The position numbers and the translations under genes are program-made. A stretch of 64,000 nt of DNA, from contig NZ_VOPH01000002.1 of NCBI RefSeq assembly GCF_009765275.1, forward strand, positions 310,001 to 374,000, in the 5' to 3' direction. A model generated the notes under the pieces. It saw only the letters and a list, made by a program, of their open reading frames with translations, was not told where the DNA came from and made no database searches. Source of the DNA: Chachezhania sediminis (GTDB lineage Bacteria > Pseudomonadota > Alphaproteobacteria > Rhodobacterales > Rhodobacteraceae). This document shows positions 27,460-32,518 of the stretch, one piece after another. The first letter of the stretch is position 1. Every line of letters starts with the position of its first letter.

Positions 27460-28484
27460 CGGCCCCTCAGCTTGTCGAGCGCGGCGGGGTCGGGCGCGGG
27501 CAGGGAATCGCGGACGAGGTCGGAAATCGGGGCCAGTGCGGTGTGGTCCAGATCGCGCATCGCGTGGTCCCAGACGCGGGGGATCAGGTCGACATAGCGA
27601 GGCTTGCCGTAATCCGTGGCCAGCCGCGCGAAGACGCCGATGATACGCAGGTTGCGCTGGGTGCCGATCAAGGCATAGCCGGTTCGGAAGGCATGATCGT
27701 CGGTGCCCGTCGCCTCGATATACCGGGCGATCATGCGGTGTTCGATCACGGGCGACACGTCGCGGCGGGCGTCCTGCAACAGCGAGACAAGGTCATAGGA
27801 CGGATGGCAGGTCATCGCGTCCTGGAAATCCAGAAGGCCCACCCGTTCCAGCCCGTCGCGGTCCGGCAGCCACAGCAAGTTTTCGGCGTGGTAATCCCGC
27901 AGCGCCAGCACCGGCGGGGTGCGGGTGGTCTGGTGCAGCAGATCCTCGAACCGTTCGGTGAAGCGGGCGGTCAGGGCCGGGTCGTCCTCGCCGGTCACGG
28001 CGGTGCGGTACTTGGTGAAGGCCAGTGCCGCCAGTTCCGCCATCAGGCCGGGGGAATAGTCCGGCGCCTCTGGCAGGTCGCAGTTGTGAAGGCGGACCAG
28101 GACGTCGACGGCGGCCTCGTATAGCTGGTGCTCCATCTCTGGCTGACGTTCCAGAACGCGGGCAAAGAGGGCATCGCCCAGGTCTTCCAGCAGCAGAAGG
28201 CCGGTCGTCGCATCTTCGGCCAGGATCTTCGGCGCGGCCAGGCCGCAGGCGGTCAGATGGCGGGCGATGGTGACGAAGGGGCGGACGTCCTCGTCCTTTT
28301 CCGGGGGCGCGTCCATCAGCACGGCGCGGGTGCCGTCGGCTGCGGTCAGCCGGTCGTAACGGCGGTTCGAGGCATCGCCAGCCAGCGGCGCGATGGCCGC
28401 GTCGCCCCAGCCGGCATCGGCCAGGAAGCTGCGGATCGCGGCGGTGCGGTCAGCGTTGGACTTGGGCGGGGATGAGGTCTGCAA
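27456..28484 (-). CDS. amgK: AmgK-like aminosugar kinase
   Basis: 342 aa, aminoglycoside-phosphotransferase fold. LAGDASNRRYDRL is the nucleotide loop, LLLLEDLGDALF the hinge, LRDYHAENLLWLP the catalytic loop (HxxN) and LLDFQDAMTCHPSYDL the metal-binding Asp. In Pseudomonas AmgK phosphorylates MurNAc/GlcNAc at the anomeric carbon and feeds MurU, and the same pair is here. The N-terminus overlaps tsaE by 35 bases, so the true start could be slightly downstream. Confidence 0.9.
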   Translation of the reverse strand: MQTSSPPKSNADRTAAIRSFLADAGWGDAAIAPLAGDASNRRYDRLTAADGTRAVLMDAPPEKDEDVRPFVTIARHLTACGLAAPKILAEDATTGLLLLEDLGDALFARVLERQPEMEHQLYEAAVDVLVRLHNCDLPEAPDYSPGLMAELAALAFTKYRTAVTGEDDPALTARFTERFEDLLHQTTRTPPVLALRDYHAENLLWLPDRDGLERVGLLDFQDAMTCHPSYDLVSLLQDARRDVSPVIEHRMIARYIEATGTDDHAFRTGYALIGTQRNLRIIGVFARLATDYGKPRYVDLIPRVWDHAMRDLDHTALAPISDLVRDSLPAPDPAALDKLRGR

Positions 28485-29007
28485 GCTTGGTCGTCCATTT
28501 CGGGTCGCGCCAGGACAGGCGCAGGTGGCGGGGGGCGTCGTCGGCCTCGGGGCTTATGGGCCGGCCGGGGATCAGAGACAATGCCAGCGCAGCGGCCGGC
28601 GCCAGGTCGCCCAGCCGGTCGGGCCATTCGATCACGGTCACGGCGGTTTCGAAAGCGTCGGCCAGGCCCAGTTCCTGGACCTCGGATGTGTCGGTCAGGC
28701 GATAGAGGTCGGCATGCCAGATCTCGTCCTCAGGCGGGCCATAGGTCTGGACCAGCGTGAAGGTGGGCGAGGGGACGTCCTCGGAAGGGCTGCCAAGTCG
28801 CGCGCGGATCAGGGCGCGGGTGAAATGGGTCTTGCCGGCACCGATGGGGCCGGTCAGCAGCAGGCAGTCGCCGGGGGCAAGGCAGGCGGCCAGGCCTTCG
28901 GCAAACGTGGCGGTTGCGGTTTCGTCCGCAAGGGTCAGGTCACGGGTCTCGCCCGGCGGATCGGACGGGGCGCAACGGTCGGACGGGTCTGCGGCAGAGG
29001 GGCTCAT
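28450..29007 (-). CDS. tsaE: tRNA threonylcarbamoyladenosine synthesis ATPase TsaE
   Basis: 185 aa. Walker A LLTGPIGAGKTHFTRALI; DVPSPTFTLVQTY and IWHADLYRL are TsaE signatures; VIEWPDRLGDLAP follows. It drives t6A37 tRNA modification with TsaB and TsaD (not in this window). Start ATG 29007 (MSPSAADPS); the longer frame to 29133 is GC-rich non-family sequence. First of the tsaE-amgK-murU-addB-addA-trxA string; the PAS gene upstream ends 168 bases before it. Confidence 0.93.
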   Translation of the reverse strand: MSPSAADPSDRCAPSDPPGETRDLTLADETATATFAEGLAACLAPGDCLLLTGPIGAGKTHFTRALIRARLGSPSEDVPSPTFTLVQTYGPPEDEIWHADLYRLTDTSEVQELGLADAFETAVTVIEWPDRLGDLAPAAALALSLIPGRPISPEADDAPRHLRLSWRDPKWTTKLADLIPAQVQR

Positions 29008-29175: not shown

Positions 29176-31023
29176 TCAGGGTTGCGGATCGGGCGGCGTT
29201 TCCGGCAAGCCGCCGGGGCGTTCGCGGCCGCGGGGCCGCGGCGAGGTGCTGCCCGGGACCTTCCCAGACTTGGCCGGGTGTGCGGCGGCGGGTCCCGGGT
29301 GGGCCGCCAGCATGGCGGAATGGATCGCGGGGGCCATGGTCAGGTCGGCATCGCCGCGGCTGCGGTTCGTCCGGACGAACCGCACCAGCGTGGCGCCGCC
29401 ATGGATCGGGTAGACGCCGCACCACAGGGGCTCACCCGACCGCAGGTGGGCTGTGGCAGACCATTCCGAACGGTTTTCCCGCAAGGTGACGAAATCGCGG
29501 ACATCGCCCCAGGCCGGGGTCGCCTTGCTGTGATCCTGCCAGACGCGGATTGCATCGACGATGGTGGTCTGGGCGAAGCTGCTTTCGGGATCCACCCCCC
29601 ACAGCCGGCAATAGGCGGGGTTGGAAAAGGCCAGCATCCCGTCGGCGGTGAACACGGCCACGCCGTCTTCCAGCGAGTCGATGACCGACTGGCCCAGTTC
29701 CAGGTCCGACCGGAAGCGGCGTGTCAGCGTGACCTCGGCGGTGATATCCTCGAACAGGAAGGCCACGGCGCCGTCGGGATGTGGCCGTCCGCTGACCGAG
29801 AAGACCGACCCGGACGGCAAGCTCCAGGTTTCCTGGTAGCGGCCGTTGGCGGCGGCGGCCATCAGTTCGGACAGCTGTTGGCGCCAGGTGGAATAATCCT
29901 TGGGCTCCGGCATGACATTGCGGTCGCGCAACCGGTCGAAGAACGAAAACAGGTCCGGCCGTGCCGACAGGAATTCCGCCGGCAGCGCCGTCAGGTCGAT
30001 CAGGGCGGGGTTGAACAGTGCCAGCCGCTGGTTCCGGTCGAAGATCGCCAGCCCGATGGACAGCTGCGCAAAGGTCTTGGCCAGGGTCTGAACGAAATTG
30101 CGCTGGGCGTATTCGGCGTTCACCACGGCGTTGATGTCATTGGCAAAGAACAAGGACCCCTCGCCGGCGACGACGCGGCTGATCTCGAACCAGAGCTTGG
30201 TATCGGTGCCCTTCGCTTCCAGCGCGTGCCGGACGGGCCGTCCGTCCGGGGTGCGGTCCAGCTTGGGCGGGAACAGCGGTCGGCTGCCGTCGTCGCAATC
30301 GCCGAAGACGCGGCGGCAGAGGGCCAGATAGGCCTCGTTCGACCAGACCACCGCGCCGTGCTTGTCGACCTGCCAGACCGGATAGGGCGCCTTTTCCGCG
30401 GCAAGACAGGCGGCGGTGACGCCACCCAGCGCTTCCAACAGCCCGGTGGCGCGTTTCGGGCCCACGACCCGGATCAGGATCCGGTGTGCCCAGCGGGCGA
30501 GGAACGTCGCGTCTTCGCCCGGCTGGGCACCGACCGACCGAAGACCGGGCGACCGCCGGTCCGCCGGTCCGCCAGTCCGCAGCCGGCGATCGCGGATTTC
30601 GACCCGGACCGCACCGTCCAGCCATTCATAGACGATTTCGCCCGGATCGTTCTGGACCCGGGCGATGCTGTGCAGCCGCCCGGCCTTTTCCACCATGCTT
30701 AAGGATTTGGGGACGCCGTTGAACCGGACGGTCAGGATCGATGCCAGGTCGGCCCAGATCACTTCGCCTTCGTCGGCCGACAGCATTTCCCGCATCGGGC
30801 CGGAGGCCCCGATCAGGTGACTGCCGTCAAAGAGAAACACCGACCCCTGCGCCCCGTCCGGTGCGGCAAGCGCCGAAGGCAGGGCCGCAACCCTGCGTCC
30901 CGGGCGCCGCAGCCGTTCGATCATGCAGCGGCCCGACGGCACCAGCCACGCAACCGCGGCCACGGCGCCCAGGGTGCAGGCCGCCGTCGTGATAATCAGT
31001 TCCGCGATCGCAATGGTATGCAT
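29176..31023 (-). CDS. Membrane-anchored multi-PAS protein without a kinase domain
   Basis: 615 aa. One N-terminal membrane helix (about 5-30), then PAS-like segments around 55-150 and 215-310, and two clearer ones: FVQTLAKTFAQLSIGLAIFDRNQRLALFN (about 335-363) and ELGQSVIDSLEDGVAVFTADGMLAFSNPAYCRLWG (about 465-500). After the last PAS strand there is no HisKA His-box and no HATPase N/G boxes; the chain ends in a Pro/Arg/Gly-rich tail. Such architecture next to tsaE recalls DivL, the PAS-rich regulator of CckA, but that identity is inference. A perfect CtrA-type box precedes it. Could instead be an orphan sensor. Confidence 0.8.
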   Translation of the reverse strand: MHTIAIAELIITTAACTLGAVAAVAWLVPSGRCMIERLRRPGRRVAALPSALAAPDGAQGSVFLFDGSHLIGASGPMREMLSADEGEVIWADLASILTVRFNGVPKSLSMVEKAGRLHSIARVQNDPGEIVYEWLDGAVRVEIRDRRLRTGGPADRRSPGLRSVGAQPGEDATFLARWAHRILIRVVGPKRATGLLEALGGVTAACLAAEKAPYPVWQVDKHGAVVWSNEAYLALCRRVFGDCDDGSRPLFPPKLDRTPDGRPVRHALEAKGTDTKLWFEISRVVAGEGSLFFANDINAVVNAEYAQRNFVQTLAKTFAQLSIGLAIFDRNQRLALFNPALIDLTALPAEFLSARPDLFSFFDRLRDRNVMPEPKDYSTWRQQLSELMAAAANGRYQETWSLPSGSVFSVSGRPHPDGAVAFLFEDITAEVTLTRRFRSDLELGQSVIDSLEDGVAVFTADGMLAFSNPAYCRLWGVDPESSFAQTTIVDAIRVWQDHSKATPAWGDVRDFVTLRENRSEWSATAHLRSGEPLWCGVYPIHGGATLVRFVRTNRSRGDADLTMAPAIHSAMLAAHPGPAAAHPAKSGKVPGSTSPRPRGRERPGGLPETPPDPQP

Positions 31024-31075
31024 CTGATCACCAGTCCTAGCCGTCGCTACGCCTTTTCAGACTGGCGCGCCGTAG

Positions 31076-31091
31076 TTAAGCCATGGTTAAC
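31076..31091 (-). promoter_or_regulatory. Candidate CtrA binding site
   Basis: TTAAGCCATGGTTAAC: a perfect TTAA-N7-TTAA(C) full site; on the minus strand it also contains TTAACCAT, a known CtrA half-site motif. It lies 53-68 bases upstream of the PAS-protein start, in the 100-base gap after regB. Seen by eye only. Confidence 0.6.
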
Positions 31092-31123
31092 GTCTGAAAT
31101 GACGGTACGTCAGAGCTGTGTAT

Positions 31124-32518
31124 TCACACCTCGATGGGCAAGTTTCGACCGGTCGGCACCTGGTTGCCTTCGGCCCGGGCGTCGATGGTACGACGGGGCC
31201 AGACGACCTCGACAATCGCACCGATCCGGTCGTCCGGGCTTTCGCCTGGCTGATAGGGGTCGGACCCGTTGGCGAAGGTCAATTCCGCCCCGGACCGTTC
31301 CAGCAGCGTCTTTGCAATGAAAAGGCCCAGCCCCATACCTTCGTATTCGGGCCGTTTGGTCGTGTCACGCTCGGTCCGTCGGCGGCGCATGAAGGGATCG
31401 CCGATCCGTCCGATCAGGTGCGGGGGATAGCCTTCGCCATCGTCCAGGATCCGGACCGAAATCGCTTCGGCCGACCAGGTGCTTTCGACCCAGACCCGCG
31501 CCGACGCGAAATCGACGGCGTTCTGGATCAGGTTCCGCAGGCCGTGAATGACCTCGGGTTTGCGCAGGACCGAAGGCTGGGGGCCGCCGGCGCCTTCGGG
31601 ATCGTTCCGGATCTCGACCAGCTTGCCGCGGTGCATGTGCGGCTCGGCCGCCTCGGCCAGGACGGCGCTCAGCGGGGCCTGCCGCAGGTGCAGGTCGTCC
31701 TTCCCGGCACGGCCCATATCCCGCAGGATGTCGCGGCAGCGGTCGGCCTGTTCGCGGATCAGGGCCGCATCCTCGCGCAGGTCGGGCCAGTCTGCCAGCT
31801 CCTCGATCAGCTCGGACGAGGTCAGCTTGATCGTGGCCAGCGGCGTGCCCAGTTCGTGGGCCGCGGCGGCGACCACGCCGCCCAGATCGGTCAGCTTCTG
31901 TTCGCGTGCCAGTGCCATCTGGGTCGCGGCCAGCGCGTCGGCCATGGAATGCATCTCGGACGAGACGCGGCGGGAATAGACGCCAAGGAAGACAATGGCG
32001 ATCAGGATCGCCGCCCAGTTGCCGAAGACGAAGAGGTCCGGCACCCGCAGGACAAAGCCCTGTGCCGTGCGAAGGGGAATGTGGTACTGCGCCAGCAGCG
32101 TGACCAGGATGATCGCCGTGCCGCCCACGATCAGCGTGGGCCGCAACCCCATCACGCTGGCGGAAATGGTGACCGGTCCCAGCACCAGCAGGGTGAAGGG
32201 GTTGTTCAGCCCCCCCGTCAGGTACAGCAGGAAGGACAGCTGCAGCAGGTCGAACATGACCATCAGAAAGTTTTCGGATTCCGACAGGCGCTTGTTTTCC
32301 GGGAAAACGAACATTGCGATCAGGTTGCCGATGGCGGAAATGCCCACCGCCAGGTAGCACAGGCCGAATTCCAGCCAGAGGTCGAACATGTACTGGGCGA
32401 CAGTCAGCGCGGTGACCTGGCCCGCGATGGCGACCCAGCGAAGCAGGATCAGGGTACGCAGGCGGATCCAGTTGCTGCGGGCCTCTTCTGAAAGAAGACC
32501 CATCTTTATGTCGGGCAT
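31124..32518 (-). CDS. regB: Redox-sensing histidine kinase RegB (PrrB)
   Basis: 464 aa. Six membrane helices in the first 185 residues, with the ubiquinone-sensing GGLNNPF loop at about 102-108. The H-box AAAAHELGTPLATIKL has the phosphorylated His221; Cys261 in DRCRDILRDMG is the redox-switch Cys of RegB. N and G boxes: GLRNLIQNAVDF, ILDDGEGYPP and EGMGLGLFIAKTLLE. It phosphorylates RegA under low oxygen to control respiration, photosynthesis, nitrogen and carbon fixation in relatives. Divergent from senC-regA as in Rhodobacter. Confidence 0.96.
   Translation of the reverse strand: MPDIKMGLLSEEARSNWIRLRTLILLRWVAIAGQVTALTVAQYMFDLWLEFGLCYLAVGISAIGNLIAMFVFPENKRLSESENFLMVMFDLLQLSFLLYLTGGLNNPFTLLVLGPVTISASVMGLRPTLIVGGTAIILVTLLAQYHIPLRTAQGFVLRVPDLFVFGNWAAILIAIVFLGVYSRRVSSEMHSMADALAATQMALAREQKLTDLGGVVAAAAHELGTPLATIKLTSSELIEELADWPDLREDAALIREQADRCRDILRDMGRAGKDDLHLRQAPLSAVLAEAAEPHMHRGKLVEIRNDPEGAGGPQPSVLRKPEVIHGLRNLIQNAVDFASARVWVESTWSAEAISVRILDDGEGYPPHLIGRIGDPFMRRRRTERDTTKRPEYEGMGLGLFIAKTLLERSGAELTFANGSDPYQPGESPDDRIGAIVEVVWPRRTIDARAEGNQVPTGRNLPIEV

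Follow-up and report, generated by a model that had tools for sequence, protein, structure and literature searches.

Sequence comparison supported the assignment of P0001, a protein encoded in the 64-kb stretch of DNA that was analysed here (the window), as the product of a Rhodobacterales divL gene of the short type. A link to DivL had previously been proposed in a sequence-only reading from architecture and context. It was now supported by a reciprocal best match with a DivL of the tyrosine type, by the match of the locus to the R. capsulatus divL gene (rcc00042) through published primers, and by the conservation of a CtrA box in front of the gene. The features of the window on which the argument was built were as follows.

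29176 to 31023, minus strand: divL, predicted short (kinase-less) form, encoding P0001; open reading frame of 615 aa with an ATG start.
Within 29176 to 31023, minus strand: layout of P0001, with an N-terminal membrane helix, PAS repeats and a proline/arginine-rich C-terminal tail.
31076 to 31091, strand given as ".": predicted CtrA box TTAAGCCATGGTTAAC, which is TTAACCATGGCTTAAC in the divL direction; exact TTAA-N7-TTAA(C).
31024 to 31123, minus strand: regB-divL intergenic stretch of 100 bases, presumed to hold the divL promoter.
31124 to 32518, minus strand: regB, redox sensor kinase, upstream of divL; open reading frame of 464 aa, named from reading of the translation.
28450 to 29007, minus strand: tsaE, downstream of divL; P-loop GPIGAGKTHF in the translation, named from reading of the translation.

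Pfam matched P0001 to PAS_7 (71.9 bits, over two stretches), PAS_8, PAS_4 and PAS, all above their cut-offs, and found neither HisKA nor HATPase up to E = 1. Hydropathy windows above 1.6 began at residues 3-11 only. Together, Pfam and hydropathy bore out the initial description of a membrane helix followed by PAS segments with no HisKA or HATPase, and the PAS_7 search that had been suggested for the PAS region gave a positive answer. NCBIfam returned four weak matches to P0001, all of them far from the curated cut-off, and a PDB search extended to E = 1 gave no sequence relative. An AlphaFold model built from a three-row alignment was of low confidence (mean pLDDT 47.8, pTM 0.25); the order of its strands and helices weakly suggested a helix at the N terminus followed by at most four PAS-like units.

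In the direction of the gene the box was TTAA-CCATGGC-TTAA-C, and it was located 53-68 bases upstream of the divL ATG, as initially described for a full CtrA consensus. It was the single occurrence of TTAA-N7-TTAA in the 64-kb window, where 0.01 would be expected by chance. Genome-wide, the pattern occurred at 19 sites versus 15 for the reversed control pattern. Since this count was barely above the control, the lone site was weak evidence and was not taken as proof, and the weight was therefore placed on conservation. A consensus scan of the regB-divL gap of the window revealed no terminator-like and no sigma-70-like site. One could suppose that P0001 was an unrelated PAS sensor preceded by a chance CtrA-like site, given that PAS domains are common, that four genes of this genome matched PAS_7 and that exact sites were nearly as numerous as control ones. 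However, both the box and the gene order were conserved and the best match was reciprocal (see below), so that this explanation was ruled out and retained next to no probability.

Conservation was assessed in a survey of 136 genomes of the family, 127 with a match and 9 without. A 57-residue match in G030 was left out, and 126 loci, one per genome, were analysed. With the box search interval set from the end of regB, exact TTAA-N7-TTAA was present upstream in 103 of the 126 loci; the remaining spacers between 0 and 15 each occurred in 0-3 of them. A set of 118 short loci was then defined by leaving out L163 (a hybrid kinase judged to be a paralogue), L032, which lacked upstream sequence, and the six HisKA-bearing loci. 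In this set the box was exact in 103 loci, had one mismatch in 12 and was neither in 3; the 12 were only partly meaningful because one-mismatch sites were common at other spacers (10-34 of 126 loci). The short form was tested with Pfam in six long-tailed loci (L028, L035, L037, L038, L061 and L142). For the other 112 it meant at most 96 residues of open frame past the match, a definition that could miss a domain lying beyond a frameshift; a few of these frames were broken. Two Rhodobacteraceae loci with exact boxes (L001 and L002) and the primer-matched genome G250 stood outside these counts; L003 was a weak actinobacterial match (E 4e-4). As to loss of the box in relatives, an outcome named beforehand as refuting, the box was exact in 103 of the 118 short relatives and not exact in 15. 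The consensus of 102 aligned boxes extended to TTAAC-N5-[AG]-TTAACC[AT]TT; the box of the window continued with C-TACG, a poorer fit to the extended form.

The identity of the gene was approached through its long homologues. The first homologue search covered 61 genomes and matched P0001 in 53, with one match only in its own genome. Outside the family, 18 of 24 genomes had a match; a weak one in G059 was left out, and 18 loci from 17 genomes (two from G040) were fetched. Pfam was run on seven of these 18 loci, and six had both HisKA and HATPase. The seventh, L046 (G040:C13), had neither: it encoded a second, kinase-less PAS homologue of 569 aa beside the Tyr-type long DivL of that genome. For six long homologues, the NCBIfam matches listed were all to general histidine kinase models. 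It has been reported that replacement of the phospho-histidine by tyrosine is a mark of DivL (PMC4211667). At this site, 13 of the 18 other-family loci had Tyr and one had Cys, with no motif match in four, and the Tyr motif of the long homologues was SY[EQ]LR[TNSA]PL (Ser-Tyr-X-Leu-Arg at the phospho-His site). When the PAS part of L045, the sole long homologue run back, was searched against the genome of the window, P0001 was the best match with 120 bits and the next place had 19.5 bits. L045 and P0001 were thus reciprocal best matches, at 26% identity, and best matches to unrelated sensors, the other outcome named as refuting, did not occur.

Additional evidence came from the primer table of PMC9143464, which gives qPCR primers for the divL gene of R. 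capsulatus (rcc00042). The forward primer had 0 mismatches in one of 394 genomes (G250), and the reverse primer matched with 1 mismatch about 80 nt further. Both primers fell inside the G250 orthologue of P0001 (41% identity, E 8e-113), and the gene order in G250 was regA, sco / regB, divL, tsaE, with the exact box TTAACGGCACATTAA. Two gel-shift probe primers from the same table had at least 7 mismatches at the G250 locus; therefore G250 may be a close relative rather than R. capsulatus itself. The window shared with this locus the regB-divL-tsaE order and the exact box, and P0001 differed from the primer-matched orthologue by its own tail of roughly 65 residues past the conserved part.

It has previously been reported that a Rhodobacterales cluster without DivK had a DivL with no kinase domain, and that the same cluster had CtrA sites before cckA and divL, in theory allowing feedback (Brilli 2010, PMC2877005). 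The proteins rcc00042 and D. shibae Dshi_3433 have been listed with PAS domains only (PMC6473078). The D. shibae assignment was not uniform in the literature, as PMC6473078 also gave the name DivL to the kinase Dshi_3346 and in one passage equated it with the Rhodobacter gene. Two divL paralogues have been described in several Rhodobacterales (PMC8116508). The short and long DivL and the loss of DivK have been mapped, with degenerate long forms noted (PMC9430884). According to these descriptions (PMC2877005, PMC6473078, PMC4046655 and PMC9430884), P0001 would share with the short DivL of R. capsulatus and D. shibae the kinase-less PAS protein, the CckA-ChpT-CtrA pathway and the promoter CtrA site; the site has been reported for D. 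shibae, and the likeness to Dshi_3433 is one of description. In comparison to the long DivL pseudo-kinase of the Caulobacter type (PMC4211667), the PAS half was orthologous, but P0001 had no DHp and CA domains and no Tyr at the His site. It was not classified with that type because it lacked HisKA and HATPase, and since the DHp and CA domains were absent, it had no reader of DivK~P. Of the 18 loci of other families, 4 shared with the window a tsaE match near divL, but regB was upstream in 0 of 18, and the exact box was found in 1 of 18.

As an explanation of the whole, we considered it very probable that the short divL is activated by CtrA~P and that its product stimulates the CckA-ChpT-CtrA route in a positive feedback loop. 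Phosphorylated CtrA would activate divL by binding the TTAA-N7-TTAA box in the regB-divL gap. The DivL protein would be tethered in the membrane by one helix, its PAS domains would sense a cue, and it would boost the kinase activity of CckA, from which phosphate would pass via ChpT to CtrA and close the loop. Both the activation of divL by CtrA and the stimulation of CckA by DivL are inferred for this organism from relatives. The short DivL would be expected to be free of DivK control, since in Caulobacter DivK~P is read by the pseudo-kinase half, which has been lost here.

CtrA is able to repress as well as activate, and the box followed the regB stop at a short distance (median 20 bases, 98 loci). 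Therefore, one could propose that the CtrA site repressed divL, or mainly shielded it from regB read-through, and that the loop was negative. We judged this very unlikely, because the level of divL has been reported to drop in D. shibae ctrA, cckA and chpT mutants (PMC4046655) and in R. capsulatus ctrA knockouts (PMC6363796). A divL1, possibly another paralogue, was likewise lower when ctrA or cckA was mutated in P. inhibens (PMC12363192). These reports favoured activation of divL by CtrA.

The gene order around divL was also well conserved. In 119 of the 126 family loci a regB match preceded divL on its own strand, and a same-strand tsaE match was present in 114 of 126, in agreement with the position beside tsaE pointed out by the sequence-only reading. 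Some of the misses of regB or tsaE were contig or fetch edges, and the regB match of L163 may be its own kinase domain. The tsaE start of the window was likely near 29007 rather than at the longest-ORF start 29133. Beyond regB were sco/senC-like and regA-like genes on the opposite strand, and past tsaE an aminoglycoside-phosphotransferase-like gene, all named from reading of translations. Literature searches pairing DivL with regB or with tsaE gave no title or abstract treating this neighbourhood. Terminator-like sites after regB were found in 8 of 113 loci, versus 1 of 119 for a control segment within divL. As such sites were few and the gap of the window had none, transcription of regB may run on into divL.

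This arrangement raised the question of whether a short DivL that had lost the pseudo-kinase half acted on a partner other than CckA, for example as a PAS sensor tied to RegB/RegA redox control. The near-constant regB neighbour and the scarcity of terminator-like sites between the two genes would fit such a role, and there is no established way for PAS domains alone to act on CckA. Moreover, it has been reported that RegA activates the CtrA regulon of R. capsulatus and that FnrL may bind next to divL (PMC7232146). On the other hand, the same paper named chpT as the sole CtrA phosphorelay gene regulated by RegA. Studies of R. capsulatus put DivL above CckA and CtrA~P in the pathway (PMC6363796, PMC9143464), with DivL promoting CtrA phosphorylation via CckA (PMC9143464, citing Westbye 2018), and the conserved CtrA box linked divL to the CtrA pathway. 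Thus, a partner other than CckA was unlikely, and the CckA route was preferred.

The genome of the window encoded CtrA (435.9 bits, cut-off 350) and ChpT (95.5 bits, cut-off 22.9). The best CckA-like match had 513.9 bits versus a Brucella-based cut-off of 1000, which no control genome passed either. Sites with one mismatch preceded the ORF starts of ctrA and cckA by 48-68 bases. Apart from the divL box there were 18 exact sites, some of them inside ORFs, and flanking proteins were scanned for nine (10 proteins). These included FliG, an autoinducer-binding LuxR protein, a receiver-SpoIIE protein and a single receiver domain of 120 residues. Exact boxes preceded the genes of the FliG-like protein (L174), the receiver-SpoIIE protein (L178) and the LuxR-type autoinducer regulator (L182). 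The remaining flanking proteins were two transferases, a dehydrogenase, an aminotransferase, a DUF4864 protein and a metallopeptidase-like protein, for which we know of no CtrA link.

On contig C23 of the same genome, the 120-aa protein P0002 (L181:1788-2150) was encoded about 185 bases downstream of an exact CtrA box. By reading, it had D51, Glu-Ser in place of the response-regulator Asp pair and apparently Arg for the strand-5 Lys. By these motifs P0002 would be Osp-like, close to the described Osp, a CtrA-activated inhibitor of CckA (PMC9430884). The P0002 gene was separate from divL, and the expected sign of its action on CckA would be opposite to that of DivL.

In six family loci (L062, L156, L158, L160, L161 and L162), Pfam still recognised HisKA but no HATPase. 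They had a similar context, with regB upstream in five and tsaE downstream in 6/6, and none of the six had the exact box; L062 had a one-mismatch site, and only about 310 bases were available upstream of L162. At the phospho-site three of them had His, and the remaining three were read by eye as Tyr, Gln and Thr; the Tyr mark was thus not fixed in these early-branching forms. A Fisher test of the exact box in short (103 with, 15 without) versus HisKA-bearing loci (0/6) gave p = 1e-5, which ignores shared ancestry and is descriptive only. A tree was built from this single gene by a quick method, with PAS segments of 139 of the 144 loci, and had many weak forks. In it, 116 short forms made up one branch (SH-aLRT 99) and the six HisKA-bearing forms were outside it. 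Loci without the exact box were mostly scattered within the short branch, apart from one small group of three. The gain of the box and the loss of the kinase remnant thus appeared to map to about the same branch, a single event that cannot show cause. It is conceivable, though doubtful, that Rhodobacteraceae lost the DivK-reading pseudo-kinase half and gained the CtrA box, exchanging control by DivK~P for transcriptional positive feedback; still less surely, regB read-through may have offered a redox route into the CtrA phosphorelay.

The kinase-less DivL, the predicted CtrA-divL feedback, the lower divL in ctrA mutants and the stimulation of CckA are already in print in the papers cited above, and the present finding is a correct rediscovery in a new genome. 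The additions are modest: a dense count of conservation, the appearance of the box with the loss of the kinase remnant, the conserved regB-divL adjacency and a boxed Osp-like protein. A reading of raw sequence picked out a genuine CtrA-circuit gene, and the count turned a published prediction for the Rhodobacterales cluster into a dense comparative result. The near-constant regB neighbour suggests a possible way in which RegA affects the CtrA regulon; PMC7232146, which reports this effect, nevertheless points to chpT. If the timing is right, divL would be a case in which the loss of a protein-level input coincided with the gain of a promoter-level input.
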